64,000 nt of DNA from contig NC_013132.1 in the NCBI RefSeq assembly GCF_000024005.1, forward strand, positions 7,496,001-7,560,000. The letters are read 5' to 3'. The notes beneath the pieces are model-generated. The model searched no databases. It saw nothing but the letters and a program-made list of their open reading frames with translations, and was not told where the DNA came from. Below are positions 39,434-52,206 of the stretch, one piece after another (within the stretch, counting starts at the first letter, position 1; each line of letters starts with the position of its first letter). Source of the DNA: Chitinophaga pinensis DSM 2588 (GTDB lineage Bacteria > Bacteroidota > Bacteroidia > Chitinophagales > Chitinophagaceae). Position numbers and translations under genes: made by a program.

Positions 39434-39804
39434 AGAGCTTTATTATAGATTAATGTGCAAAGTTATGCTAAAATAAGAACTGTTCACTTTCCTTTCTGGT
39501 TACCTTCAGGTAAGCCAATGCATATATTATTATATGTATATCAACCTATGATCGCTAAAACTGGATAATTTCATGACGTACGCGGCTATATTTAAGGTAT
39601 TTAAAAGTTTTCTATTCGATTTTTTAGAAATTCCAAAGCAGTTTCTTGAACAAACTCAATGAAATGGCTGTTAAAACTGGCAACTGTCCAAAATTGTATC
39701 CCTAAACCCTAATGAGATCAATCGCATAACAATTTGTTAATTTCAAGTTAAAATTCGTTAGAATTTATTCCCCAATTTTGCGTCATAAATCAAACTGCTC
39801 TTAT
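39434..39804. other. Divergent intergenic region, ribBA and Oar-like receptor
   Basis: About 370 AT-rich bases. It holds a small inverted repeat TTACCT-TC-AGGTAA (39500-39513) nearer ribBA and a promoter box at 39773-39780. I found no FMN riboswitch consensus and no small gene. Confidence 0.5.
39773..39780 (+). promoter_or_regulatory. -7-like box CAATTTTG
   Basis: One mismatch to TAnnTTTG, and followed by the same CGTCATAAA sequence as the box at 31970. It lies 24 bases upstream of the receptor ATG at 39805, so here the mRNA has a short leader. Confidence 0.45.
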
Positions 39805-42800
39805 ATGGGATTTAGAAGACTACTATTTACATTCATTGTTCTGTTTAGCACAATCACTTCGTTTGCGCAGGTAACTACCAGTAGCATGATTGGTAGAATC
39901 ACCGGCCCTTCGAAGGAGGCGTTACCCGGGGCTACCGTTGTTGTGATCCATCAGCCTTCAGGTACCAAGTACGGAACAACTACCGATGCGGAAGGTTACT
40001 ACCGTATCCCCAACATGAACGTTGGTGGTCCTTACAAAGTAACTTCTACCTTTATCGGTTACACTGAATACAATCAGGGCGATATCTTCCTCGCACTCGG
40101 TCAGCCATTCAGACTGAACATCAGCCTTGGCGAAAAAGCCCAGGATATCAAAGAAGTACAGGTAATTGGTCAAAGAAGCACTGTCTTCAATTCTAACCGT
40201 AAGGGAGCACAGACTACCCTGAACCGCACACAGGTTGAAGCCCTGCCTTCAGTAGGTAGAAACCTCACTGACTTTGTACGTTTAACGCCTCAGGCGAAAC
40301 TGACCAAAGACGGTAGCGGTAACCAGACTATATCTATCGCAGGTACCAGCAACAAGTACAACGCTACTTTCGTTGATGGTGCGGTACAGAACGATGTATT
40401 CGGTCTGGCAGAAAATGGTACCAATGGTGGTCAGATCGGTATTTCTCCGTTCAGCATTGACATCATTGACCAGTTCAATATTAACGTATCTCCGTTCGAC
40501 GTTAAACAGGGTGGTTTCGCAGGTGGCGCCATCAACGCTGTAACCAAAAGCGGTACTAATGAAATAGAAGGTTCTGCATATTACTTCGTACGTAACGAAA
40601 GCCTCGCTGGTAAGACTCCAACAAAAGACGAAAGCAAACGTACCAAACTGGCAGATTTCTCTTCCAAAACATACGGCGTACGTTTAGGTGGTCCGATCAT
40701 CAAGAATAAACTGTTCTACTTCGTCAACGCAGAATGGCAGAAAGAAAACCGTCCGCAGCCATTCGCTTATGAAACATATGCGAATGGTCGTGCTACTCCG
40801 GCTTCAAGGGGTAAGCTGGATACACTACAAACTAAATTGCGCTCAGCAGGTTACGATCCGGGCGGATATGAGACAACTGAAAATACACTGGATGGCCGCA
40901 AGTTCTTTGCAAGAATTGACTGGAACATCAACGAAAATAACAAGTTCACTATCCGTCACCAGTATACACATGGTGAGAGCGTAAGTCCTGGTAAATCCAG
41001 CGCTTCTACTATCACCTTCTCTAATAAAGGTATCTCCTTCCCTTCTACCACCAACGCTACCACTGCTGAGCTGAAAAGCCAGTTTGGTAACAGGGCGTCT
41101 AACTCCCTGCTGTTAGGTGCTAACTTCGTAAGAGACGACCGCGGTATCACCGGCGCTCCATATACTTCCGTATTCATTTCAAGAGAATCTATCAGCTTCG
41201 GTACAGAAGAGTTTTCTGCAGCTAACCTGCTGAAACAGGACGTACTGACCCTGACTGATAACCTGGAACTGTACAGAGGTAAACACACCATCTCCCTGGG
41301 GACAAGTAACGAGTTCTATAACATGACCAACGTATTTATCGGTCAGAACTTTGGTTCTTATACTTTCGCTACCCTGGATGATTTCCTCAATGACAAATCA
41401 CCAACCCAGTACAACCGTTCCTTCTCAGCTGTAGATAAAACTACCGGTGATAACACCAACGGTGCTGCTAAATTCAAAGCACTGCAACTGGGTCTGTATG
41501 CACAGGACGACTACCAGGTAAACGATCGTTTACGTTTATCACTGGGTGTTCGTGCTGACCTGCCGATGCTGCTGACTGATCCTGCTGTAAACAATGATTT
41601 CAATACCAATGTACTGCCTCAGGTAGTTGCTGCCGGTAAATGGGATATCAAAGGTGCACAGACAGGTGTTAAGCCAGACGCTAAGCTTCTGCTGTCTCCA
41701 CGCTTTGCCTTTAACTGGGACGTGAAAGGTGACCAGACTACCCAGATCCGTGGTGGCGCCGGTATCTTCACCAGCCGCATCCCTTATGTTTGGTTAGGTG
41801 GTATCTATAACAACAATGGTGTTACCCTGGGTGGTATGAGACTCGCTTACGATTCTACCAAACCAACCGGCGGTACCAACAACCCGATTCCTTTTGTATC
41901 TGATCCTTATGCGCAGCCTAGCATCACTGCTGCGCCATCAGGTAAAATTGATCTGTTTGCAAAAGATTTCAAATTCCCTCAGGTATTCAGAACCAGCATC
42001 GCTGTTGATCAGAAATTGCCTTGGGGTATGGTGGGTAGCTTAGAAGCGATCTACACCAAAAACATCAACAACGTTGTTTATTACAACCTGTCTTACATCC
42101 CTGCTGGTACGAATGTAACCGGTAGCGGTAGCGACAACCGTCCGATGTGGAAAAACGTAGGTAAACCAATTCTGGGTAACTACACTGATATCATGTATGC
42201 TGATAATACCAGCAAAGGTTATTCTTACAACCTGACTGCTCAGTTACAAAAAACCTTCTATGGTGGTTTCAGCGCAATGGCCGCTTACACTTACGGTCGT
42301 TCTAAAAGCATCAACGACGGTCAGTCTTCTCAAAACTCTTCTCAGTGGAGAGTACCAAACGTGAGAGGTCGTAACGACATCGATCTGGGTACGTCTATCT
42401 TCGACCTGGGTTCAAGAATCATTGCTTCTGTAACTTACAAGAAAGAATACCTGAAACACTTCGGTACGACTGTTACCCTGTACTACACTGGTCAGTCCGG
42501 CGAAAGATTCTCTTACGGTTACAGAGATATTCCTAACACCAACATCGTTGGCGACTACAACGGTTCCAGCAGTGATAAAGGTCTGAACCTGATCTACATC
42601 CCGAGAAGTGCATCAGAGATCAACCTCGTATCCTACCAGGCTAACGGTGCAACCGTTACTCCGGAACAACAGTGGGCTGCACTGGATGCGTTCATCAATG
42701 GTGATAAATACCTGAGCAAACACAGAGGTGAATATGCACCGAAGAATGGTCTGAGAACTCCGTTCACACACATCTTTGACCTGCACATCGCACAGGATAT

Positions 42801-43098
42801 CTACATCACCCAGAAAAATGGTAAACGTCATACATTACAGATCTCCTTCGACGTATTCAACCTGGGTAATATGATCAATAACGACTGGGGTCGCGTATAC
42901 TCTACCCGTACAGGTATGAGCTACAACAACTACGGTCTGATCGACTTCGTTGGTTTTGCAGCTAACGGAACTACTCCGACGTATAATTTTAAAGCGCCTA
43001 CCAAATACGACAACAAGACTGTTGCTCAGATCGATGATTTCGGTTTACAGTCTGCTCGTTGGCAGGGTCAGCTGGGCTTCCGCTATATCTTCAGATAA
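39805..43098 (+). CDS. Oar-like TonB-dependent outer-membrane receptor
   Basis: From ATG 39805 (MGFRRLLFTFIVLFSTITSFAQ signal peptide) the protein has 1,097 residues. A CarboxypepD_reg domain (about 24-115, GRITGPSKEALPGATVVV), a plug (VEALPSVGRNLTDFVRLTP, GGFAGGAINAVTKSGTN), and a large barrel ending GQLGFRYIFR follow; the pattern is that of Oar/OmpA-like receptors, without SusD. Its codons are unusually uniform (GGT, AAC, CTG and CGT predominate), a sign of very high expression. A strong terminator follows. The two lipoproteins downstream have their own promoter. Ligand unknown. Confidence 0.92.
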   Translation: MGFRRLLFTFIVLFSTITSFAQVTTSSMIGRITGPSKEALPGATVVVIHQPSGTKYGTTTDAEGYYRIPNMNVGGPYKVTSTFIGYTEYNQGDIFLALGQPFRLNISLGEKAQDIKEVQVIGQRSTVFNSNRKGAQTTLNRTQVEALPSVGRNLTDFVRLTPQAKLTKDGSGNQTISIAGTSNKYNATFVDGAVQNDVFGLAENGTNGGQIGISPFSIDIIDQFNINVSPFDVKQGGFAGGAINAVTKSGTNEIEGSAYYFVRNESLAGKTPTKDESKRTKLADFSSKTYGVRLGGPIIKNKLFYFVNAEWQKENRPQPFAYETYANGRATPASRGKLDTLQTKLRSAGYDPGGYETTENTLDGRKFFARIDWNINENNKFTIRHQYTHGESVSPGKSSASTITFSNKGISFPSTTNATTAELKSQFGNRASNSLLLGANFVRDDRGITGAPYTSVFISRESISFGTEEFSAANLLKQDVLTLTDNLELYRGKHTISLGTSNEFYNMTNVFIGQNFGSYTFATLDDFLNDKSPTQYNRSFSAVDKTTGDNTNGAAKFKALQLGLYAQDDYQVNDRLRLSLGVRADLPMLLTDPAVNNDFNTNVLPQVVAAGKWDIKGAQTGVKPDAKLLLSPRFAFNWDVKGDQTTQIRGGAGIFTSRIPYVWLGGIYNNNGVTLGGMRLAYDSTKPTGGTNNPIPFVSDPYAQPSITAAPSGKIDLFAKDFKFPQVFRTSIAVDQKLPWGMVGSLEAIYTKNINNVVYYNLSYIPAGTNVTGSGSDNRPMWKNVGKPILGNYTDIMYADNTSKGYSYNLTAQLQKTFYGGFSAMAAYTYGRSKSINDGQSSQNSSQWRVPNVRGRNDIDLGTSIFDLGSRIIASVTYKKEYLKHFGTTVTLYYTGQSGERFSYGYRDIPNTNIVGDYNGSSSDKGLNLIYIPRSASEINLVSYQANGATVTPEQQWAALDAFINGDKYLSKHRGEYAPKNGLRTPFTHIFDLHIAQDIYITQKNGKRHTLQISFDVFNLGNMINNDWGRVYSTRTGMSYNNYGLIDFVGFAANGTTPTYNFKAPTKYDNKTVAQIDDFGLQSARWQGQLGFRYIFR

Positions 43099-43266: not shown

Positions 43267-43325
43267 TACCCGGATCCGTATCTTCAGATATGATCCGGCT
43301 ATTATAAATGGTTCCCTATTACTCT

Positions 43326-44186
43326 ATGAGAAAGATCCTGCTGAGCGCAGTACTCCTTACGTCATTGTTCGCATCCTGTAAAAAGGAAGACGCACCCGTT
43401 ACTGAAGATCCTATCCCTAAGGACAGGGTGTTCTTTACCCTCGACGGCGGTAATATGAGCAACTACACCATGCTGCAACTCGATGACAAACAAAGGGTTG
43501 ATTATTATATAATAGCTAATCTCGATAGAAATTACTACTTCAGACAGGACCCGATATTTGATGCAGACGGCCGTATGACCGGCATGAACACCAATACCGA
43601 AGCAGATCCCTCTGCCCTGCTGAAAACAGCCACTTTCGCGTATAACAGCAACAATAAACTGGTCATTATCAATCATATATCCCCTAGCACCTGGAACAGA
43701 CTGAGTTACGACAGCCTGGTATACAACGGTGAAGGACAACTGGCTGCCATTTATCATAGTAAACCAAACAACGAAGTCACGCCTCAATTTGCCTTTTACA
43801 GCAAGGAGACAATGGTATGGGACAGCAAAAGCAACATCATTGCCAGACACATATTGCCCTTCTCCGGCGATACAGAAGGCAAGGATACCATCAGCACCGC
43901 TACCTATACTTATGACGACGCGATCAACTTCATGATCAAACCGGCAGACCTGTTCGTAATGGACCTGAACAATGGTATCACCTGGTTATCAGCTAATAAT
44001 CCGCTTACGCAGGTTACAAGATACCCTGCAGGCGACTCTGTGGTGACCATCAACAATTTATACACTTACGACAGAGGCAACTACCCGGACTCAATCTTTC
44101 ACACCAGAAAGGCCACTCAGGGAGGCGCCGAAGTGTATAACAATACCAGCAAATTTGCCATCAAGTATAAAATTCTCGACAAATAA
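43326..44186 (+). CDS. Lipoprotein with YD-repeat-like (DUF4595-type) beta motifs, copy 1
   Basis: The start MRKILLSAVLLTSLFASC at 43326 (lipobox LFASC) is favoured over ATG 43308. The 286-residue mature-plus-signal protein contains repeated 'Y..DG.....' strands (LDDKQRVDYY, FAYNSNNKLVIINH, LVYNGEGQLAAIYH), like the YD/RHS-type repeats of DUF4595 proteins. It is probably surface-exposed. It is paralogous to the next gene, 13 bases downstream. Function unknown. Confidence 0.72.
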   Translation: MRKILLSAVLLTSLFASCKKEDAPVTEDPIPKDRVFFTLDGGNMSNYTMLQLDDKQRVDYYIIANLDRNYYFRQDPIFDADGRMTGMNTNTEADPSALLKTATFAYNSNNKLVIINHISPSTWNRLSYDSLVYNGEGQLAAIYHSKPNNEVTPQFAFYSKETMVWDSKSNIIARHILPFSGDTEGKDTISTATYTYDDAINFMIKPADLFVMDLNNGITWLSANNPLTQVTRYPAGDSVVTINNLYTYDRGNYPDSIFHTRKATQGGAEVYNNTSKFAIKYKILDK

Positions 44187-44199
44187 CTGCTCATAATAC

Positions 44200-45045
44200 A
44201 TGATTAGACTTCTACTAACTGCAGCTTTATTTATCACTTGCTTTGCTTCCTGTAAGAAGGACGACGGTCCACAGGGAGAAAGAGCTTTTTCCACCATGGA
44301 GCCTCAGAACGACCGCGGTCTGAAAACAAGTTCCTATTCCTACGACAGACGTAACAGGGTAGCGATCTTCCAGACATCAGATGTCACCGCTGAGGATTTC
44401 CATTCCGAAATGATCCGCTTTGACACCACAGGCAAGATCTCGTTTACTTATGTTTCCAGTGAATTGGGCAGCGTAGGTGCGAAGGCCAAAGAAGTGGAGT
44501 ATGACACAGAAGGCAGAGTCGGAAAAGTAATACTATTCTCTTCGTATAGTGGCCTGAAAAATGGCTATGACAGTCTCGCGTATGATAATGCCAATAAGAT
44601 CATAGGTATTTATCACTATGAAATTGACGGCGTGATCGCTCCTTACCTGCTGACACGTAAAGACCTGATGGTAAGAGATGCCAGAGGCAGGGTAACTGAT
44701 CGCCGGGAAATACCGGTGTACAGAAATACCGAAAGCACCCGCATCACGACTATCTCCTATACCTATGATGAGAAGCCGAACTATAAAGGCGCGTCTTTTA
44801 CGCACTTTATCTTCGATGCAGAAGAAAATGCCGGCTGGATGTCTGCCAACAACGCGATTACAAAAACGACACAATATCCTGATGGCTCTGTACAGACCAT
44901 CACGAATGCCTATACCTACGACGCTGATAACTTTGCCACCTCCGTGAGTCAGAACGAACAACTGACAAGAGGTGGCACAATGGTTTCCAACAAGACCACT
45001 TCATACAACCTGAAGTATACATTCTTGCTGCCAAGCGATCTGTAA
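44200..45045 (+). CDS. Lipoprotein with YD-repeat-like beta motifs, copy 2
   Basis: 281 residues. Lipoprotein signal MIRLLLTAALFITCFASC, then SYSYDRRNRVAIFQ, EYDTEGRVGKVILF, LAYDNANKIIGIYHY. Alignment with 43326 is evident in 'LTRKDLMV' versus 'YSKETMVW', 'WMSANNAITKTTQYP' versus 'WLSANNPLTQVTRYP', and 'YNLKYTF' versus 'FAIKYKI'. The pair arose by tandem duplication. Envelope role presumed; otherwise unknown. A terminator follows. Confidence 0.72.
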   Translation: MIRLLLTAALFITCFASCKKDDGPQGERAFSTMEPQNDRGLKTSSYSYDRRNRVAIFQTSDVTAEDFHSEMIRFDTTGKISFTYVSSELGSVGAKAKEVEYDTEGRVGKVILFSSYSGLKNGYDSLAYDNANKIIGIYHYEIDGVIAPYLLTRKDLMVRDARGRVTDRREIPVYRNTESTRITTISYTYDEKPNYKGASFTHFIFDAEENAGWMSANNAITKTTQYPDGSVQTITNAYTYDADNFATSVSQNEQLTRGGTMVSNKTTSYNLKYTFLLPSDL

Positions 45046-45101: not shown

Positions 45102-45129
45102 GCGTCCCGTCATAAGGGACGCTTTTTTT
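45102..45129 (+). terminator. Intrinsic terminator after the lipoprotein pair
   Basis: A 7-bp stem GCGTCCC/GGGACGC (45102-45108, 45116-45122), seven-base loop, seven T. Confidence 0.85.
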
Positions 45130-45214: not shown

Positions 45215-45922
45215 ATGCTGGAACAACATTACAAATGGCATTCCCCGCACCTGGGCCATGAATTTGAAATGCTGGTGTACGGAGAAGAGGGCTATCCGCT
45301 GATACTCTTCCCTACCTCCATGGGAAGGCATTATGAGCACAGAGACAGGGGTGTGATACAGTCATTGGAATGGTTTATCAACAACCAGCTGATCAAGGTG
45401 TACTGTCCGGATACGGTGGACGTACACAGCTGGTACAACATACACATTTCCCCTGCTGAAAGAGCCCTTCATCATATCAGATATGACCGTATGCTCCGCC
45501 ACGAGGTACTGGAAAAAGTGACCGAAGAAACAGGCGTTCAACGCATTGCGGTAGCCGGATGTAGTTTCGGTGGTTATCACGCAGCCAACTTTGCCTTCCG
45601 GTACCCGGAAAGAGTATCCTACCTGTTCAGCCTCAGTGGTGTTTTTGATGTAAAATCCCGGCTGAACGGCCATTATGACGACAATGTGTATTATAATAAC
45701 CCGGTAGATTTTATGCCGGCAAATCCGCATGAAGCCCTTTGGCGGATGGGAATTATACTGGGCGTAGCTGAAAAAGACATTACCCGTAGCCAGAATGAGA
45801 CAATGTCCGGCATCCTTCATAATAAAGGCATTATGCACTGGCTGGACGTAAGGCCCAACAAGACACACGACTGGCCCACCTGGCTGGAGATGCTGCCTTA
45901 CTACCTGTCCCTGATCAAATAG
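45215..45922 (+). CDS. Alpha/beta-hydrolase, esterase-like
   Basis: A 235-residue cytoplasmic hydrolase. The nucleophile elbow is GCSFGGYHA (S117) and the catalytic histidine H218 sits in PNKTHDWPTW. It resembles esterase D/PHB-depolymerase-like proteins. It lacks a signal peptide. It is the first gene of the amidoligase-type cluster, with 81 bases to the ATP-grasp gene. Here it could release or transfer an acyl or peptidyl group. A -7-like box TATATTTA lies five bases before the ATG. Confidence 0.85.
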   Translation: MLEQHYKWHSPHLGHEFEMLVYGEEGYPLILFPTSMGRHYEHRDRGVIQSLEWFINNQLIKVYCPDTVDVHSWYNIHISPAERALHHIRYDRMLRHEVLEKVTEETGVQRIAVAGCSFGGYHAANFAFRYPERVSYLFSLSGVFDVKSRLNGHYDDNVYYNNPVDFMPANPHEALWRMGIILGVAEKDITRSQNETMSGILHNKGIMHWLDVRPNKTHDWPTWLEMLPYYLSLIK

Positions 45923-46003
45923 CCTCTACTGTTGGCGCGAATATTGATTTTCATCGGCCACTGTTGTAAACGACGGATAACCAAACAGTAAAACTCTTTA
46001 CAG

Positions 46004-47125
46004 ATGAAAAAAATAGGACTCCTTTTCGGCCAGGAAAATGGCTTTCCGCAGGCTTTTATCGATCGTGTGAATGACAAACAGATAGACGGAATCACAGCAG
46101 AAGCAATATCCATCGAGAAAGTGATACAGGGTACCCCCTCCGGCTATAGCGTCATCCTTGACCGCATCTCCCAGGACGTACCCTTCTATCGTACCTGGCT
46201 TAAACAGGCCGCACTTGATGGTACTGCGGTTATCAACAACCCTTTCTGGTGGAGTGCTGACGACAAATTTGTCAACAATGAACTGGCACACCGCACAGGT
46301 GTAAAAGTGCCTAAAACAGCACTGATCCCCTCCAGAGACCTACCCCTCAATACAAGCGATCAATCTTTCAGAAACCTGGTCTACCCTTTCGATTGGGACG
46401 CTATCTTTGATCATATCGGCTTTCCTGCCTACATGAAACCATACAATGGCGGCGGCTGGAAACATGTGTACAAAATACATGACCGTGAGGAGTTCTTTGC
46501 ACAACATGCCCGTACCGGACAACTGGTTATGATGCTGCAGGAAGAAATCAAATACGAATCTTATTATCGTTGTTATTGCATAGGTGGCAGATATGTACGC
46601 GTAATACCTTACGATCCATATCAGCCGGAAAATCAGCGTTATCTGACAGAAGATTCCGGAGATACCACACTGTTGAATACCATTGCCGACCAGGTCGCAC
46701 AACTGAACCAATACCTCGGCTATGATTTCAACTCCGTTGAAATTGCTATTCAGAATGGTGTGCCTTATGTCATTGATTTCTGGAATCCCGCTCCGGAAAC
46801 AAATGAAAAAGTGATTGGTACCGAAAACTTCGAATGGGTGGTGGAAACAGCCGCTACCTACGCCATACAGCGTGCGCAACAGCAAACGCCTGGAACAGAT
46901 AACCTGACCTGGGGCAATTTCCTGCAACATGCCATTCAGGGACAACAAACCGCTATCGTACCCGGCGCAAAGAGAGTTGCCGCTAAAAAGCCGACCGCTG
47001 TCTCTCCCGCCAAGCCGCCAAAAGATACTAAAACACTGAAGGAGCCAAAGGCGCCGAAAGTGGAAGATAAAGAAACGCCGGCCAAAAAAACTTCGGTAAA
47101 AAAGACAAAAAAGAAAGAAGACTAA
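46004..47125 (+). CDS. ATP-grasp amidoligase-like protein with basic C-terminal tail
   Basis: Residues 1-~315 form an ATP-grasp domain. The lysine and glycine-rich segments are PAYMKPYNGGGWKHVYKI (about 143-160), and the metal-binding end is SVEIAIQNGVPYVIDFWNPA, followed by PETNE. From about 318 the protein becomes a lysine/proline/alanine tail (AAKKPTAVSPAKPPKD, then KKTSVKKTKKKED) similar in composition to histone H1. The enzyme would ligate a carboxylate to an amine using ATP. The substrate is unknown; the tail may bind nucleic acid, a membrane, or an acidic partner. It is part of the 45215-50580 cluster. Confidence 0.82.
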   Translation: MKKIGLLFGQENGFPQAFIDRVNDKQIDGITAEAISIEKVIQGTPSGYSVILDRISQDVPFYRTWLKQAALDGTAVINNPFWWSADDKFVNNELAHRTGVKVPKTALIPSRDLPLNTSDQSFRNLVYPFDWDAIFDHIGFPAYMKPYNGGGWKHVYKIHDREEFFAQHARTGQLVMMLQEEIKYESYYRCYCIGGRYVRVIPYDPYQPENQRYLTEDSGDTTLLNTIADQVAQLNQYLGYDFNSVEIAIQNGVPYVIDFWNPAPETNEKVIGTENFEWVVETAATYAIQRAQQQTPGTDNLTWGNFLQHAIQGQQTAIVPGAKRVAAKKPTAVSPAKPPKDTKTLKEPKAPKVEDKETPAKKTSVKKTKKKED

Positions 47126-47127
47126 TT

Positions 47128-47161
47128 CAATTAGGAATTAGGAATTAAGAATTAGGAATTG
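47128..47161 (+). repeat. Heptamer block, left arm of a 34-base inverted pair
   Basis: CAATTAG GAATTAG GAATTAA GAATTAG GAATTG begins two bases past the stop codon of the ATP-grasp gene. Its reverse complement matches 47333-47366 at 33 of 34 positions. Confidence 0.88.
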
Positions 47162-47275
47162 TCGACTACAGTCCTGCATATTTTCCGGAGGACTTCCATT
47201 GTCCTTATTGCTATTCCCTTTGGATTCCTGATTCGAAATTATTCTTTAACATGATTTTCGACTGAAAAGAAAGAA

Positions 47276-47283
47276 TAACTTTG
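47276..47283 (+). promoter_or_regulatory. -7 promoter box TAACTTTG for the YbdK-type gene
   Basis: Perfect TAnnTTTG match inside the gap between the two heptamer blocks. Transcription would start about 47288 and include the right block (47333-47366) in the 5' untranslated region. Confidence 0.5.
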
Positions 47284-47332
47284 GGGTAATTAGGAAAATT
47301 AATCCGGAATTGAAGTGTCAGCTAATTGTACT

Positions 47333-47366
47333 CAATTCCTAATTCGTAATTCCTAATTCCTAATTG
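47333..47366 (-). repeat. Heptamer block, right arm of a 34-base inverted pair
   Basis: CAATTCC TAATTCG TAATTCC TAATTCC TAATTG; near-exact inverse of 47128-47161, with 171 bases between. It ends nine bases before the start of the next gene. Confidence 0.88.
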
Positions 47367-47375
47367 AATCACCGC

Positions 47376-48476
47376 ATGCTCAATAACTTCACCCTCGGTA
47401 TTGAAGAGGAATACATGGTCCTGGACCCCCAGACCAGAGAACTGAGATCTCATGAACAAAAGATCGTAGAACAAGCCCACAGGGTGCTCAGAGATAAAGT
47501 AAAAGCTGAATTTCACCAGGCAGTTGTGGAAGTAGGCACAGAGGTATGCGCCAATATAGATGAAGCCTGCGAAGATGTATCAATGCTGCGCAGGACAATT
47601 GCCAGCATAGCAGGCGACCTGGGATACAGCATCGGCGCTTCCGGTACACATCCTTTCTCCAAATGGCAACTCCAGCATATTACAGACAATCCCCGTTACT
47701 TTGAGATCGTCAATGAAATGCAGGATGCCGCCCGCTCCAACCTCATCTTCGGATTACATGTACATGTAGGCATGGAAAACAGGGAAATGGCCCTCCATAT
47801 CGCCAACTCCGTACGTTATTTCCTGCCCCATGTGTTTGCACTCAGTACCAACTCTCCTTTCTGGGAAGGTCGCAACACCGGCTTCAAATCTTATCGGACC
47901 AAGGTATTTGATAAATTCCCCCGTACCGGTATTCCCGATTACTTCGCCAGTATCGAAGAATATGACCGGTATATACAGTTGCTCGTAAAAACCAACTGTA
48001 TCGACAACGCCAAGAAAGTATGGTGGGACCTGCGGGTACACCCCTTCTTCAATACAGTGGAATTCCGCATCTGCGACGTACCGCTCACCGTAGTGGAAAC
48101 CTGTACCCTGGCAGCACTGTTCCAGGCTGTTTGCGCAAAGATTTATAAACTGCGTATGCAGAACCTCAACTTCATCATCTATAACCGTGCACTGGTTAAT
48201 GAGAACAAATGGCGGGCATCCCGCTACGGTATTGACGGTAACCTGATCGACTTCGGTAAAGAAATGGAAGTCAATGCCAGAGCGCTGATTCATGAACTGC
48301 TCGACTTCGTGGACGATGTAGTAGATGAACTGGGCAGCCGTCACTATATACAGCGCACCCTCGACATTCTCGAAAACGGTACCGGCGCCGATCAGCAGTT
48401 AAAAGTATACACAGATACCAAAGATCTGGTATCTGTTACCGACTTCATCACTAATAGCTTTCTGAAAGACTGCTAA
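47376..48476 (+). CDS. Carboxylate-amine ligase, YbdK/glutamate-cysteine ligase family
   Basis: Start ATG 47376 (MLNNFTLGIEEEYMV); the earlier TTG 47364 is within a repeat. The 366-residue protein shows the GCS2 signatures LGIEEEYMVLD, ASGTHPFSKW and FGLHVHVGM. YbdK-type enzymes have weak glutamate-cysteine ligase activity or join other amino acids and amines. It is the centre of the cluster, followed by a glutamine amidotransferase 17 bases later. Confidence 0.9.
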   Translation: MLNNFTLGIEEEYMVLDPQTRELRSHEQKIVEQAHRVLRDKVKAEFHQAVVEVGTEVCANIDEACEDVSMLRRTIASIAGDLGYSIGASGTHPFSKWQLQHITDNPRYFEIVNEMQDAARSNLIFGLHVHVGMENREMALHIANSVRYFLPHVFALSTNSPFWEGRNTGFKSYRTKVFDKFPRTGIPDYFASIEEYDRYIQLLVKTNCIDNAKKVWWDLRVHPFFNTVEFRICDVPLTVVETCTLAALFQAVCAKIYKLRMQNLNFIIYNRALVNENKWRASRYGIDGNLIDFGKEMEVNARALIHELLDFVDDVVDELGSRHYIQRTLDILENGTGADQQLKVYTDTKDLVSVTDFITNSFLKDC

Positions 48477-48481
48477 ACGTG

Positions 48482-48489
48482 TACCTTTG
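48482..48489 (+). promoter_or_regulatory. -7 promoter box TACCTTTG, leaderless start
   Basis: Perfect TAnnTTTG match, exactly four bases (CAGT) before the amidotransferase ATG at 48494, implying a leaderless mRNA internal to the cluster. Confidence 0.55.
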
Positions 48490-48493
48490 CAGT

Positions 48494-49339
48494 ATGATAC
48501 CGACAAAGCAGCACTGGAAAATTGCCATCCTGGACATGTACGAGCAGGTGCCTAATGAAGGTATGCGCTGTATACGGGAGATATTGACCAGCTATGCAGA
48601 AAAGCATGCGCTGGACATGGTATTCCATGAATATGAAGTGCGGATAGCGCAACAGGTACCCGATCTCTCTTATGATATCTACATTTCTACTGGTGGTCCG
48701 GGCAGCCCCCTGGATAGCGAAGGCAGCGAGTGGGAAGCCCGCTACTTCCGCCTGATGGAAGAGATCAGACAATGGAATAAAACAAAGGACGATAAGAAAC
48801 AGCTATTATTGATCTGCCATAGCTTTCAGCTGATGTGCCGTTATCTGAAATTAGGGAACGTATGCCGTCGCAGATCGCCTGCTTTCGGCGTATTTCCTGT
48901 ACATAAAACATCTGCCGGCGAAGAAGAACTGGTATTCAACGAACTACCCGATCCTTACTTCATCGTAGATAGCCGCAACTGGCAGGTCATAGAACTCGAT
49001 CAGGAGAAAATGGCCACTACCGGCGCTACCGTCCTGGCACTGGAAAAGGAAAGGCCGCATGTACCGCTGGAAAGAGCGACAATGGCCATCCGTTTCAGCG
49101 ATTATTGCATCGGTACACAGTTCCATCCGGAAGCAGATGCCACCGGTATGCGGATGTACCTTCTCCAACAGGAAAAAAAGAACCAGGTCATCACCAACTA
49201 TGGTGCTGAAAAATATTACAGTATGCTGGAACACCTTTCCGATCCGGATAAGATCATGCTCACCCATGACGAATTCATTCCTGCATTCCTGGACAACGCT
49301 ATTTTTAAACAGTCCGTTTCCGGCAAAATTGAAGCGTAA
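48494..49339 (+). CDS. Class I glutamine amidotransferase (GMP synthase-like)
   Basis: From ATG 48494 the protein has 281 residues. The triad is intact: C108 (LLICHSFQL), H211 and E213 (GTQFHPEAD); STGGPGSP is the oxyanion strand. Usually such domains supply ammonia to a synthetase or hydrolyse a gamma-glutamyl bond. It has no fused synthetase domain. With a YbdK-type ligase and ATP-grasps around it, it may deliver ammonia or remove a glutamyl group. GTG 48479 is an unlikely earlier start because it overlaps the promoter box. Confidence 0.88.
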   Translation: MIPTKQHWKIAILDMYEQVPNEGMRCIREILTSYAEKHALDMVFHEYEVRIAQQVPDLSYDIYISTGGPGSPLDSEGSEWEARYFRLMEEIRQWNKTKDDKKQLLLICHSFQLMCRYLKLGNVCRRRSPAFGVFPVHKTSAGEEELVFNELPDPYFIVDSRNWQVIELDQEKMATTGATVLALEKERPHVPLERATMAIRFSDYCIGTQFHPEADATGMRMYLLQQEKKNQVITNYGAEKYYSMLEHLSDPDKIMLTHDEFIPAFLDNAIFKQSVSGKIEA

Positions 49340-49380
49340 GACCGTGCAGCGTACCGGCCTATGGACTTTAACTCACCACC

Positions 49381-50580
49381 ATGATCCCTTCAATACGTAC
49401 AGCATATAACCATCAGTTCACACACCGGCAATACCAGGATTTCCTCGAAGGCATTGCCGCAGAAGCAGGAGAAGCGCCTGTCTTTAAAGTAGCGGAAACC
49501 CCTGTGTTTATTCCCGCACAACTGACAGCTCAACTCAGAAAGGCCTGTGATGAAATCATTGCGGTGATCCTGCGTCCCGATTTTAAGGAATTGACACGGA
49601 ACGCGATTCCCCACCAACTGAAAGTACCGCATGAAAACGATCACCCTCACTTCATGGTGATCGACTTTGCAGTGTGTCGCGATGAAGCTGGTGAACTGAC
49701 GCCAAGACTGATCGAATTACAGGGCTTCCCATCGCTGTACGCATTCCAGGAATTAATGGCCAGACAGTTCAGAACGCACTTTAATATTCCTGATACGGTG
49801 AATAACTTCTTCGGCGGACTAAATGCAGACAGTTATTTTCAGTTATTGAAAGATGTCATCGTGGGAGAATACCTGCCGGAAGAAGTAGTGCTGCTGGAAG
49901 TAAAGCCACACGAACAGAAGACAAGAATCGATTTTTATTATACAGAAAAGATGTTAGGTATTCAGCCTGTCTGCGTAACAGAGCTGATACAGGAGGGTAA
50001 GAAACTGTACTATGAAAAAGACGGCAGAAAAATTCAGATCAAAAGGATCTATAACCGCGTCATCTTTGATGACCTGCATCGTCAGCATGATAAACTAGGC
50101 AAACACGTCAGCCTGTTCCAGGACCTTGATGTAGAATGGATCACACATCCCAACTGGTTCTATCGCATCAGCAAATACATATTGCCTTTCATACACAGCG
50201 AATATGCACCCAAAAGCTGGTTCCTGGATGAATTGCCAGTAATCCCTTCGGATCTTGAAAACTATGTATTAAAACCGCTCTTTTCCTTTGCCGGGCAAGG
50301 TGTGCTCATAGACGTCACACAGGCGGATATTGACAAAATCACCGACCCCGGTAACTGGATCCTTCAACATAAAGTGCAATATGCTCCTGCCATAGAAACA
50401 CCGGAAGGTCCTGCCTATTGCGAAATACGTATGATGTACATCTGGCCGGATGGTAGTCCGGTACCAATTCTCGCACACAACCTCGCCAGGATCAGTAAGA
50501 GTAAAATGATCGGCGTATCACAGGGCAAACCGCAGAACTGGACCGGTGGTAGTTGTGCTTTTTTTGAAGATGCTTTATAA
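49381..50580 (+). CDS. ATP-grasp-like protein, last gene of the amidoligase cluster
   Basis: The 399-residue protein has an ATP-grasp-like C-terminal region (YVLKPLFSFAGQGVLIDV and NWILQHKVQYAP, about 297-340), and RLIELQGFPSLYAFQELMAR (about 120-139) in the N-terminal part. No closer family is recognised. It ends with a 6-base overlap with the stop of the opposite-strand FAD oxidoreductase gene. Follows the amidotransferase by 41 bases. Function predicted only from the fold and context. Confidence 0.72.
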   Translation: MIPSIRTAYNHQFTHRQYQDFLEGIAAEAGEAPVFKVAETPVFIPAQLTAQLRKACDEIIAVILRPDFKELTRNAIPHQLKVPHENDHPHFMVIDFAVCRDEAGELTPRLIELQGFPSLYAFQELMARQFRTHFNIPDTVNNFFGGLNADSYFQLLKDVIVGEYLPEEVVLLEVKPHEQKTRIDFYYTEKMLGIQPVCVTELIQEGKKLYYEKDGRKIQIKRIYNRVIFDDLHRQHDKLGKHVSLFQDLDVEWITHPNWFYRISKYILPFIHSEYAPKSWFLDELPVIPSDLENYVLKPLFSFAGQGVLIDVTQADIDKITDPGNWILQHKVQYAPAIETPEGPAYCEIRMMYIWPDGSPVPILAHNLARISKSKMIGVSQGKPQNWTGGSCAFFEDAL

Positions 50581-52206
50581 GCGCTGCTTATCCTTTTGCA
50601 ACTGTGTCTTTAATTGTTCATAACTGATATCCTGTATGGCTTTTTTATTGTCAATGGCCTGGATGGCGGCAGTAGCAGCGCTTTGTCCGAGAATCATGAA
50701 CACAGGTTCCATCCGTACAGAGCCATAAGCAATGTGTGTACAGGAAAGACATACCGGCGCCAATAGATTAGTACATTCCTCCTTTTTCGGTACAATGGAA
50801 CCATAGCTGATACGGTAAGGAACAGGTATTTCTACACCAATATCGCCTTCATTCTGTACAGTACCATCTTCTTTTACATAACGCTGCGCATTGTGCGAAT
50901 CAAGCGTATAAGAACCCATACCGATCGCGTTGGATACTTTGTTCCTGCCTAACACTTCATTTTCCGTCATCGTCTCCAGCCCTTTCATACGTCTGGCTTC
51001 GCGGATATACAGTTGATGAGGCCAGTTACCATTATCTTTGAATTCGTCACGGGAAAGGCCCCATTTCGCCATACGTAGGCGGATGCTATCCGGTACACGC
51101 GGATCTGTCGCAATAAAATATAATAATCCCTGCTGATAAACTTTATGCGCTGCTATAATCTCCTTTCTTCTCTCATAAGAAGCATCCGGATAATCATAGT
51201 TCATACCAATGTAATCCATACTAAATGGACCATGGTTATTGACATCCGTCTTATGATTGGGAATGGGATCAAATTTGTTGAAGACTTCATTCCAGCCCGT
51301 TTCAAATACGCGCAGCAACAATGCATACTGTGTAGCATCGTAGTCTGCAGGACGCGTGAATGGAATACGGTTCGCCGGTAAATCAGTCAGACATAAACGA
51401 AAGCAATACGCCTGTATCCTCTTATCGCCACTCCCCTTTTCACCAGGCGCCTGGTCAGAAATCAGTGGTAGTAATCCACTATTACGGTCCCCGGGTATCT
51501 TATATGCGCTAACTGGTTTCTTAAAATGATGTCCATGCTGAAAGACGTCTGTCTGCACACCTGCCCAGGTTTCATTGAATTCATTACGCGCTTCACGGCC
51601 CACACTATAAGAGATGCCGGCAACCGCCATCAGATCACCTTCATAGGTTGCATCTATGAACATTTTTCCTTTAAAAGTTTTACCGCTGAGTGTTGTAATA
51701 GCGGTAATCTGCTGTCCTTTTTTCGTGACACCAGCTTTCCTGTCCAGCCATTCATTGCGGTAGATCTTAATCTTATATTCCTTTACAAAGTCTTCAAATA
51801 CCTTTTCTGCCGCATGAGGTTCAAAGATCCACATCGTGCGGTCTGTACCATCAATAGCGGGTGTTCCCTGGCCTTTGTTTCCATAAGCGGATTGTTCCTG
51901 CCAGTTCCAGGAAGCGGGCTGCTGATAATGCATATAAATGCGATGATAAAACTCACGGGCAAGTCCGCCGATGACCTCTTTATTCCCGGTATCAGTGAAA
52001 CCAAGGCCGCCGGCTGATAGTCCGCCGAGATGTTGGTCGGGCGATACCACTACCACAGATCTGTGCATTCTGCAGGCTTGTACGGCGGCCGTAATAGCAG
52101 CAGATGTACCGCCATAGATGACGATATCGGTTTCGGTGGTTGTCTGGGCGATGGTGTCAGCGAAAGTCAATAGGGAGCAGAAACAAATGAGCCATATATG
52201 CTTCAT
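50575..52206 (-). CDS. Exported FAD-dependent oxidoreductase
   Basis: 543 residues with signal peptide MKHIWLICFCSLLTFADTIAQ and the FAD-binding N-terminus DIVIYGGTSAAITAAVQACR (GGTSA in place of the usual GxGxxG). HLGGLSAGGLG and MFIDATYEGDLMAVAG are hallmarks of the FAD_oxidored (PF12831) group, often found in Bacteroidota polysaccharide loci. Substrate is unknown. It is convergent with the amidoligase cluster and overlaps it by six bases; no functional link is implied. Confidence 0.88.
   Translation of the reverse strand: MKHIWLICFCSLLTFADTIAQTTTETDIVIYGGTSAAITAAVQACRMHRSVVVVSPDQHLGGLSAGGLGFTDTGNKEVIGGLAREFYHRIYMHYQQPASWNWQEQSAYGNKGQGTPAIDGTDRTMWIFEPHAAEKVFEDFVKEYKIKIYRNEWLDRKAGVTKKGQQITAITTLSGKTFKGKMFIDATYEGDLMAVAGISYSVGREARNEFNETWAGVQTDVFQHGHHFKKPVSAYKIPGDRNSGLLPLISDQAPGEKGSGDKRIQAYCFRLCLTDLPANRIPFTRPADYDATQYALLLRVFETGWNEVFNKFDPIPNHKTDVNNHGPFSMDYIGMNYDYPDASYERRKEIIAAHKVYQQGLLYFIATDPRVPDSIRLRMAKWGLSRDEFKDNGNWPHQLYIREARRMKGLETMTENEVLGRNKVSNAIGMGSYTLDSHNAQRYVKEDGTVQNEGDIGVEIPVPYRISYGSIVPKKEECTNLLAPVCLSCTHIAYGSVRMEPVFMILGQSAATAAIQAIDNKKAIQDISYEQLKTQLQKDKQRL

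Follow-up and report, generated by a model that had tools for sequence, protein, structure and literature searches.

What does a compact row of genes for a hydrolase, two ATP-grasp proteins, a GCS2-type ligase and a protein of the glutamine amidotransferase fold do for the cell that carries it? The question is raised by positions 45215-50580 of a stretch of 64,000 nucleotides (nt) from Chitinophaga pinensis DSM 2588 (contig NC_013132.1, positions 7,496,001 to 7,560,000), referred to below as the window. A preliminary description of this DNA had placed five such families there on the plus strand, with an intact Cys-His-Glu triad in the amidotransferase-like protein, and had read them as an amide-bond pathway. 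The five open reading frames were confirmed, all on the plus strand and collinear. They are called g1 to g5; G, L and f numbers stand for genomes, loci and families, and c35 and Eo for recurrent neighbour proteins. The reading that we favour, and to which we give slightly better than an even chance, is that one pathway both synthesizes and recycles a small amide-linked compound (peptide-like or amine-capped), with g4 acting as a peptidase. The ligase folds and the conservation of the set support the amide-bond pathway in part; the role of g4 as an amidotransferase now looks less likely, as an M29 metallo-aminopeptidase takes its slot in some genomes.

A gene set with fixed order and two exchangeable slots

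The conservation of the genes was examined in a sample of 395 genomes of Bacteroidota, in which g3 was counted at an E value of 1e-10. This survey found g2 in 134 genomes, g3 in 129, g5 in 114 and g4 in 86; the combination g2+g3+g4+g5 occurred in 64 and g2+g3+g5 in 39, and g2 together with g5 or c35 was present in 126 to 128 genomes, about a third of the sample. The preliminary description had named a conserved neighbourhood in distant genera as support for a pathway, and such a neighbourhood exists: of the 110 genomes that carry both g2 and g5, 62 have the two on the same strand and no more than 10 kb apart, and g2 is the upstream gene in each of these. A second sample consisted of 80 named loci, the best of 554 by similarity and biased to near relatives, mostly from environmental genera (e.g., Chitinophaga, Pedobacter and Mucilaginibacter), with those of Chitinophaga closest to the window cluster. 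All five genes were present in 22 of these loci, each time in identical order and on one strand. The other 58 were without one or more genes in the fetched stretch (40 had only g2 and g3, some on short contigs), and g2 preceded g3 in 77/77 and g4 preceded g5 in 35/35. These counts show a conserved set whose genes keep a fixed order.

Three of the proteins, g2, g3 and g5, have folds of ATP-dependent carboxylate-amine ligases. The g2 protein matched the RimK family TIGR00768 with an E value of 3.9e-8 and 33 bits, below the cut-off of 143.4, and gave no Pfam match up to E 0.1; its ATP-grasp residues K145, E246, D258 and N261 were kept in 24/24 aligned proteins. The long Lys-rich tail that had been pointed out in g2 is real and is lineage-specific, as more than 40 residues stand there in 7 of the 24 aligned proteins, the window protein included. 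The assignment of g3 to the YbdK type was clear from PF04107 (213 bits, cut-off 21), NF010039 (540 bits, above the cut-off of 371) and PDB entry 1r8g (YbdK, E 2.6e-49). For g5, no family was above the cut-off in the profile scan, and the PF03738 (GSP_synth) match at E 0.029 would have been insufficient without a structural model. The structure prediction suggested for this second ATP-grasp proved informative: the AlphaFold model, with a predicted local distance difference test score (pLDDT) of 90.9, is a full-length circularly permuted ATP-grasp that comes closest to YgiC/YjfC, glutathionylspermidine synthetase and the eukaryote-type glutathione synthetase. Residues D95 and E112 of g5 were kept in 23/23 aligned proteins.

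The fourth protein carries a thiol triad. It matched GATase with an E value of 2.6e-7, its residues C108, H211 and E213 were invariant in 29/29 aligned proteins, and the motif QFHPE was present in 38/38 of a wider set. Class I glutamine amidotransferases usually have the nucleophile elbow G-x-C-x-G. This elbow is absent from g4, which has I-C-H-S-F-Q in the window and [IV]-C-H-S-[FY]-Q in 29/29 aligned proteins, with C-[HY]-S in 38/38 of the wider set.

Eight of the 62 contiguous g2–g5 operons lie in genomes without a g4 match at E 0.001. In six of these eight (G302, G093, G271, G255, G306 and G055), an M29 metallo-aminopeptidase of about 339 amino acids (aa) stands exactly between g3 and g5; it occupies the same position in G251, whose g2 sits on a separate contig. 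Family f35 shows both versions: the place held by g4 in some of its genomes is taken by M29 in G302. The fetched stretches in which M29 was sought comprised the 80 named loci and 43 of the 62 contiguous operons; no M29 was seen in the 35 g4-bearing operons examined (of 54) or in any of the named loci. The contrast between operons with and without g4 gave a Fisher P of 5e-6 with kinship ignored. The stretches GEFAIG, HIAFG-[HN]-PY and THID, which we take to hold the metal ligands, were kept in 7/7 M29 proteins.

If g4 were a true glutamine amidotransferase, it would pass ammonia to an ATP-grasp ligase, and the product would be a small molecule with a terminal amide. The GATase match and the invariant triad fit such an enzyme. 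The presence of an M29 aminopeptidase in the slot of g4 makes a peptidase role for g4 more likely than that of an amidotransferase or ammonia donor, and we consider the terminal-amide pathway rather unlikely. This exchange also raises doubts about labelling g4-like proteins automatically as glutamine amidotransferases.

The slot of g5 is exchangeable as well. Another permuted ATP-grasp of about 460 aa, c35, was found in 16/16 genomes that have g2 and g4 without g5. Fifteen of them have it between these two genes; in the remaining one, G290, c35 adjoins g2 and the contig that carries g4 is a different one. The c35 search returned 18 genomes, the extra two being weaker, separate copies in genomes where g5 is also present. 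The catalytic set of this fold, R-x-D...E-x-N, is as given for Cp1B in excerpts of PMC12568646, and c35 keeps its R, D, E and N in 6/6 proteins. The match of c35 to CP_ATPgrasp_2 (31.6 bits) was just below the cut-off of 32. Since the profile-profile comparison of g5 with c35 was not significant (probability 1.9%, E 0.026), we regard the presence of c35 instead of g5 as a replacement by the same fold and not as orthology. The link between the two rests on the shared genomes and slot and on a common solved relative, PDB entry 3n6x (putative glutathionylspermidine synthase), which is matched by c35 and is the top Foldseek match of the g5 model.

The proposed pathway

In the pathway that we propose, g3, where present, would activate the gamma-carboxylate of glutamate and join it to an amine, and g2 would add a further building block. 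The role of g5 or c35 would be to attach an amine or amino acid as a cap to a peptide carboxylate, like YgiC/YjfC and the glutathione-type synthetases. Meanwhile, g4 or the replacing M29 would hydrolyse an amide bond of the product for trimming or recycling, like the amidase half of glutathionylspermidine synthetase/amidase, and g1 and a second esterase would remove or transfer an ester-linked group. The direction of the steps (synthesis, editing or recycling) is inferred; for the product, the predicted fold of g5 would most naturally suggest a peptidyl-amine.

Several observations weigh against this pathway. As regards linkage, g2 and g5 are apart in 48 of the 110 genomes that have both, some of them on short contigs, and the P values of co-occurrence ignore kinship. 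As regards g3, it is missing from 20 of the 134 g2 genomes and from 13 of the 86 g4-bearing genomes and is dispensable; among the 16 c35-type genomes, a g3 relative is found elsewhere in eight and none in the other eight, and g3 may not be a core step. The hydrolase g1 is absent within reach of g2 in 56/80 named loci, and in a wider alignment its Ser is lost in 3/39 proteins, with the His also lost in two of these three. The peptidase step is uneven: neither g4 nor M29 was found in G001 and G006, the g4 gene of f17 and of some f35 genomes is at another place on the genome, and M29-type folds are not all peptidases. Finally, position 93 of g5 is Arg in 0/23 aligned proteins and the catalytic Asn is replaced by Gln (Q114) in 23/23; since two residues of the R-x-D...E-x-N set, Arg and Asn, are missing, the chemistry of g5 may differ.

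These residues also bear on an alternative glutathione pathway, in which g3 would make gamma-glutamylcysteine and g5, by its eukaryote-type glutathione synthetase fold, would add glycine. Plants pair GCS2 with the GSS fold. The gamma-glutamylcysteine ligase activity of YbdK, cited by reference in excerpts of PMC2588565, also speaks for this role. We keep it as a rival because g3 is the sole GCS2 protein of the host genome, a single contig of 9,127,347 bases. The canonical pair GshA and GshB was not encountered there: PF04262 (GshA) had no match, and PF02955 had one marginal match (23.8 bits, cut-off 23). However, the genome has the bacillithiol gene bshC, g5 is without the usual Arg and Asn, g3 is missing from part of the g2 genomes, and g1, g2 and g4 would be left without a role. 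We therefore regard a glutathione pathway as the least probable of the alternatives.

The RimK-like match of g2 raises another explanation, namely that a protein or carrier peptide is modified: g2 and g5 would attach amino acids or amines to it, and g4 or M29 would take them off. The pairing of a ligase with a peptidase is typical of tagging systems. On the other hand, the nearest relatives of g5 with solved structures have small peptides and amines as substrates. Moreover, the 40 commonest clusters of open reading frames (at least 100 aa) at 110 loci, a look that left smaller frames and rarer clusters outside, showed no evident gene for a carrier or target. Protein modification appears unlikely. 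A graspetide (RiPP) cluster would need a gene for a precursor peptide; within the cluster itself, such a gene would find little space in the gaps of 81, 17 and 41 nt, and the 250-nt gap is mostly repeat.

The locus and its neighbours

The features of the locus are collected in Table 1. Since a terminator-like hairpin precedes g1 and a convergent oxidoreductase gene overlaps the end of g5 by 6 bases, g1–g5 form a bounded block. The hairpin, which lies between an upstream lipoprotein-type gene and g1, is likely the upstream boundary of the unit; the palindrome listing gives it on the minus strand only.

Table 1. Features in and around the g1–g5 cluster (positions of the window)
Feature	Position	Strand	Basis
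TonB-receptor-like outer-membrane protein	39778-43098		PF25183, PF13620, PF07715
Two tandem lipoprotein-type proteins (292, 281 aa)	43308-45045		
Terminator-like hairpin with T-run	45102..45129	+	by reading: GCGTCCC-GTCATAA-GGGACGC then 7 T
g1, alpha/beta hydrolase, PF00756 esterase family, 235 aa	45215..45922	+	Pfam
g2, RimK/D-Ala ligase-like ATP-grasp, 373 aa, Lys-rich tail	46004..47125	+	TIGR00768 match, conserved residues
Repeat element with 37-nt inverted arms (97%)	47125..47369	not applicable	between g2 and g3
g3, YbdK-type GCS2 carboxylate-amine ligase, 366 aa from ATG 47376	47376..48476	+	PF04107, NF010039, PDB 1r8g
g4, class I amidotransferase-fold thiol enzyme, C108/H211/E213	48494..49339	+	GATase match
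g5, circularly permuted ATP-grasp, 399 aa	49381..50580	+	AlphaFold model, fold comparison
Convergent FAD oxidoreductase gene	50575-52206		PF12831

The gaps from g1 to g5 measure, in order, 81, 250, 17 and 41 nt. A repeat element fills most of the 250-nt gap between g2 and g3. The element, with arms that read ATTCAATTAGGAATTAGG..., has 178 matches in the genome, and nearly all of those listed fall on an arm or the edge of one, outside the core; it is not part of the pathway. It supplies a false TTG start for g3: since TTG 47364 falls inside the repeat arm, g3 likely starts at ATG 47376. Similarly, ATG 48494 is the likely start of g4. The separate promoters suggested for these genes were not borne out by this spacing or by the motif TAnnTTTG, which is no commoner in the window than chance (42 observed, 47.5 expected), although one site stands directly ahead of g3 (47276) and another directly ahead of g4 (48482). 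Searches against PADLOC with the five proteins and against PHROGs with g2–g5 gave no matches.

The g1 protein matched PF00756 (28.2 bits, cut-off 22) and PF00561 and has the nucleophile motif GCSFGG; no obvious signal peptide was seen by eye. Residues Ser117, Asp188 and His218 are present in the window protein and conserved in the alignment, which suggests that they form the catalytic triad. Ser117 and His218 were each conserved in 17/18 aligned proteins, and both in 36/39 of the wider set. The copies without Ser come from L122, L180 and L182 (genomes G031, G070 and G224, respectively) and could be a non-catalytic hydrolase kept in the cluster.

In a survey of stretches from 110 loci of 36 families, 20 genomes from 13 families proved to have a second esterase, Eo, which stands divergently upstream of g2 in 71/80 named loci. 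It is not beside the window cluster, and no clear orthologue was found in the host genome (best E 1.1e-7, partial coverage). The same survey showed an extra ATP-grasp in four families (five genomes), with an M17-type aminopeptidase alongside in three of these genomes. Esterases of the g1 type were also found in Gammaproteobacteria, Firmicutes and Rhizobiaceae (L135–L138). They adjoin an ATP-grasp_4 ligase in two of three annotated records, those of Peptoclostridium and Pararhizobium; the identity between these two ATP-grasps is 39%, and that to the extra ATP-grasp of family f4 is 23–25%. The Thiodictyon relative has no neighbouring ligase, and the Rhizobium jaguaris record is without annotation at this place.

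Outside Bacteroidota, the search covered 72,556 plasmid records and not chromosomes, and neither g2 nor g5 had a match in these records. As a marker of the pathway, g3 alone was rejected: on the three plasmids examined, one from Spirosoma and two from Paracoccus, its relatives stand apart from the other genes. In one record, the Selenomonas plasmid pSRC2 (L139 4864-9206), a ligase of the GCS2 family is found together with a MATE exporter and a permuted ATP-grasp that resembles c35 (27% over 340 aa). This set is possibly a plasmid-borne relative of the pathway with an exporter.

The absence of a transporter from the window, stated earlier, does not quite hold, given the TonB-receptor-like outer-membrane protein upstream of the cluster. 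Such a protein lies within a few genes upstream in 36/79 named loci, the window copy being 35% identical to that of L080; many of these loci also have a ribB-type gene (assigned by eye) next to it. The protein may be a candidate transporter or merely reflect the shared gene order of one family. A sodium:solute symporter is fused in frame to g5 in G125 (L148 2637-5240) and adjacent to g5 in G133; in G390 and G272, an open frame runs from symporter sequence into g5, and the symporter is split over two frames. This arrangement was seen among seven f29 genomes examined (loci L148, L149, L236 and L224). An amidohydrolase gene precedes g5 in four genomes of f25 and f28.

Together with the two esterases, these neighbours are what a salvage or catabolic module would have, with hydrolases that open an imported amide or ester and ligases that re-activate or store the pieces. 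However, two to four ATP-dependent ligases against one peptidase would be an unusual balance for catabolism, and the TonB-type protein may be a matter of gene order, as the ribB-type neighbour indicates. We consider salvage unlikely, although the likeliest of the alternatives to synthesis and recycling by one pathway.

The two lipoprotein-type proteins upstream of the cluster are 30% identical to each other and had no Pfam family above the cut-off. Genes of the glgA/glgC glycogen type lie directly upstream of E1-G2-c35-G4 clusters in L119 and L214 (f43; Pfam for L119 only), and a glgC-type gene is near the G037 cluster (L154, f2). The families concerned are too few to argue from, and the association was set aside.

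Comparison with known systems

In the literature searched, no description was found of this combination, its spread or both slot exchanges; a mention in the amidoligase survey of Iyer et al. 2009 is possible. Conservation across much of a major phylum points to an overlooked metabolite. The exchanges of g4 for M29 and of g5 for c35 turn a vague label of amide chemistry into testable statements on single enzymes and hint at the role of each part. A more ambitious claim, which we put forward tentatively and think less probable than not, is that this is an undescribed modular pathway of Bacteroidota for a glutathione-like or peptidyl-amine metabolite, with a peptidase step interchangeable between a GATase-fold enzyme with the C-H-S elbow and M29. 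In that case, the g4 group would make up a new peptidase family among the 'glutamine amidotransferases', and the permuted ATP-grasps would gain a new subfamily, g5, whose active site is altered.

Neighbourhoods of a ligase and a thiol peptidase are already known. The excerpts of PMC2588565 describe a GCS2-type ligase beside a GATase-like thiol peptidase, with peptide-like metabolites predicted; that system belongs to another GCS2-sized family, from Proteobacteria and Firmicutes, and these excerpts name no RimK-like or permuted ATP-grasp partners. E-64 biosynthesis in fungi also uses an ATP-grasp, Cp1B, with different partners in the excerpts of PMC12568646 (an oxygenase and an ANL-type ligase).

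The gamma-glutamyl peptidase GGP1 and MetA are class I GATase-fold enzymes that are not amidotransferases, and are in this respect precedents for g4. In g4, a Ser stands where MetA (2vdj) and SMU.1228c have Gly, in an alignment that leaves GGP1 outside. Plant glutathione biosynthesis, with its GCS2-type ligase and GSS, has the same two folds as g3 and g5. The system described here differs from it in three more genes, a dispensable g3, bshC in the genome and the altered active site of g5.

Glutathionylspermidine synthetase/amidase (GspSA) and the E. coli peptide-spermidine ligases YgiC/YjfC are about 12–15% identical to g5, which does not reach PF03738 and is without the Arg and Asn of the catalytic set. 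Moreover, the amidase domain of GspSA is a CHAP domain, whereas the hydrolase here is a separate protein of the GATase fold or of the M29 family.

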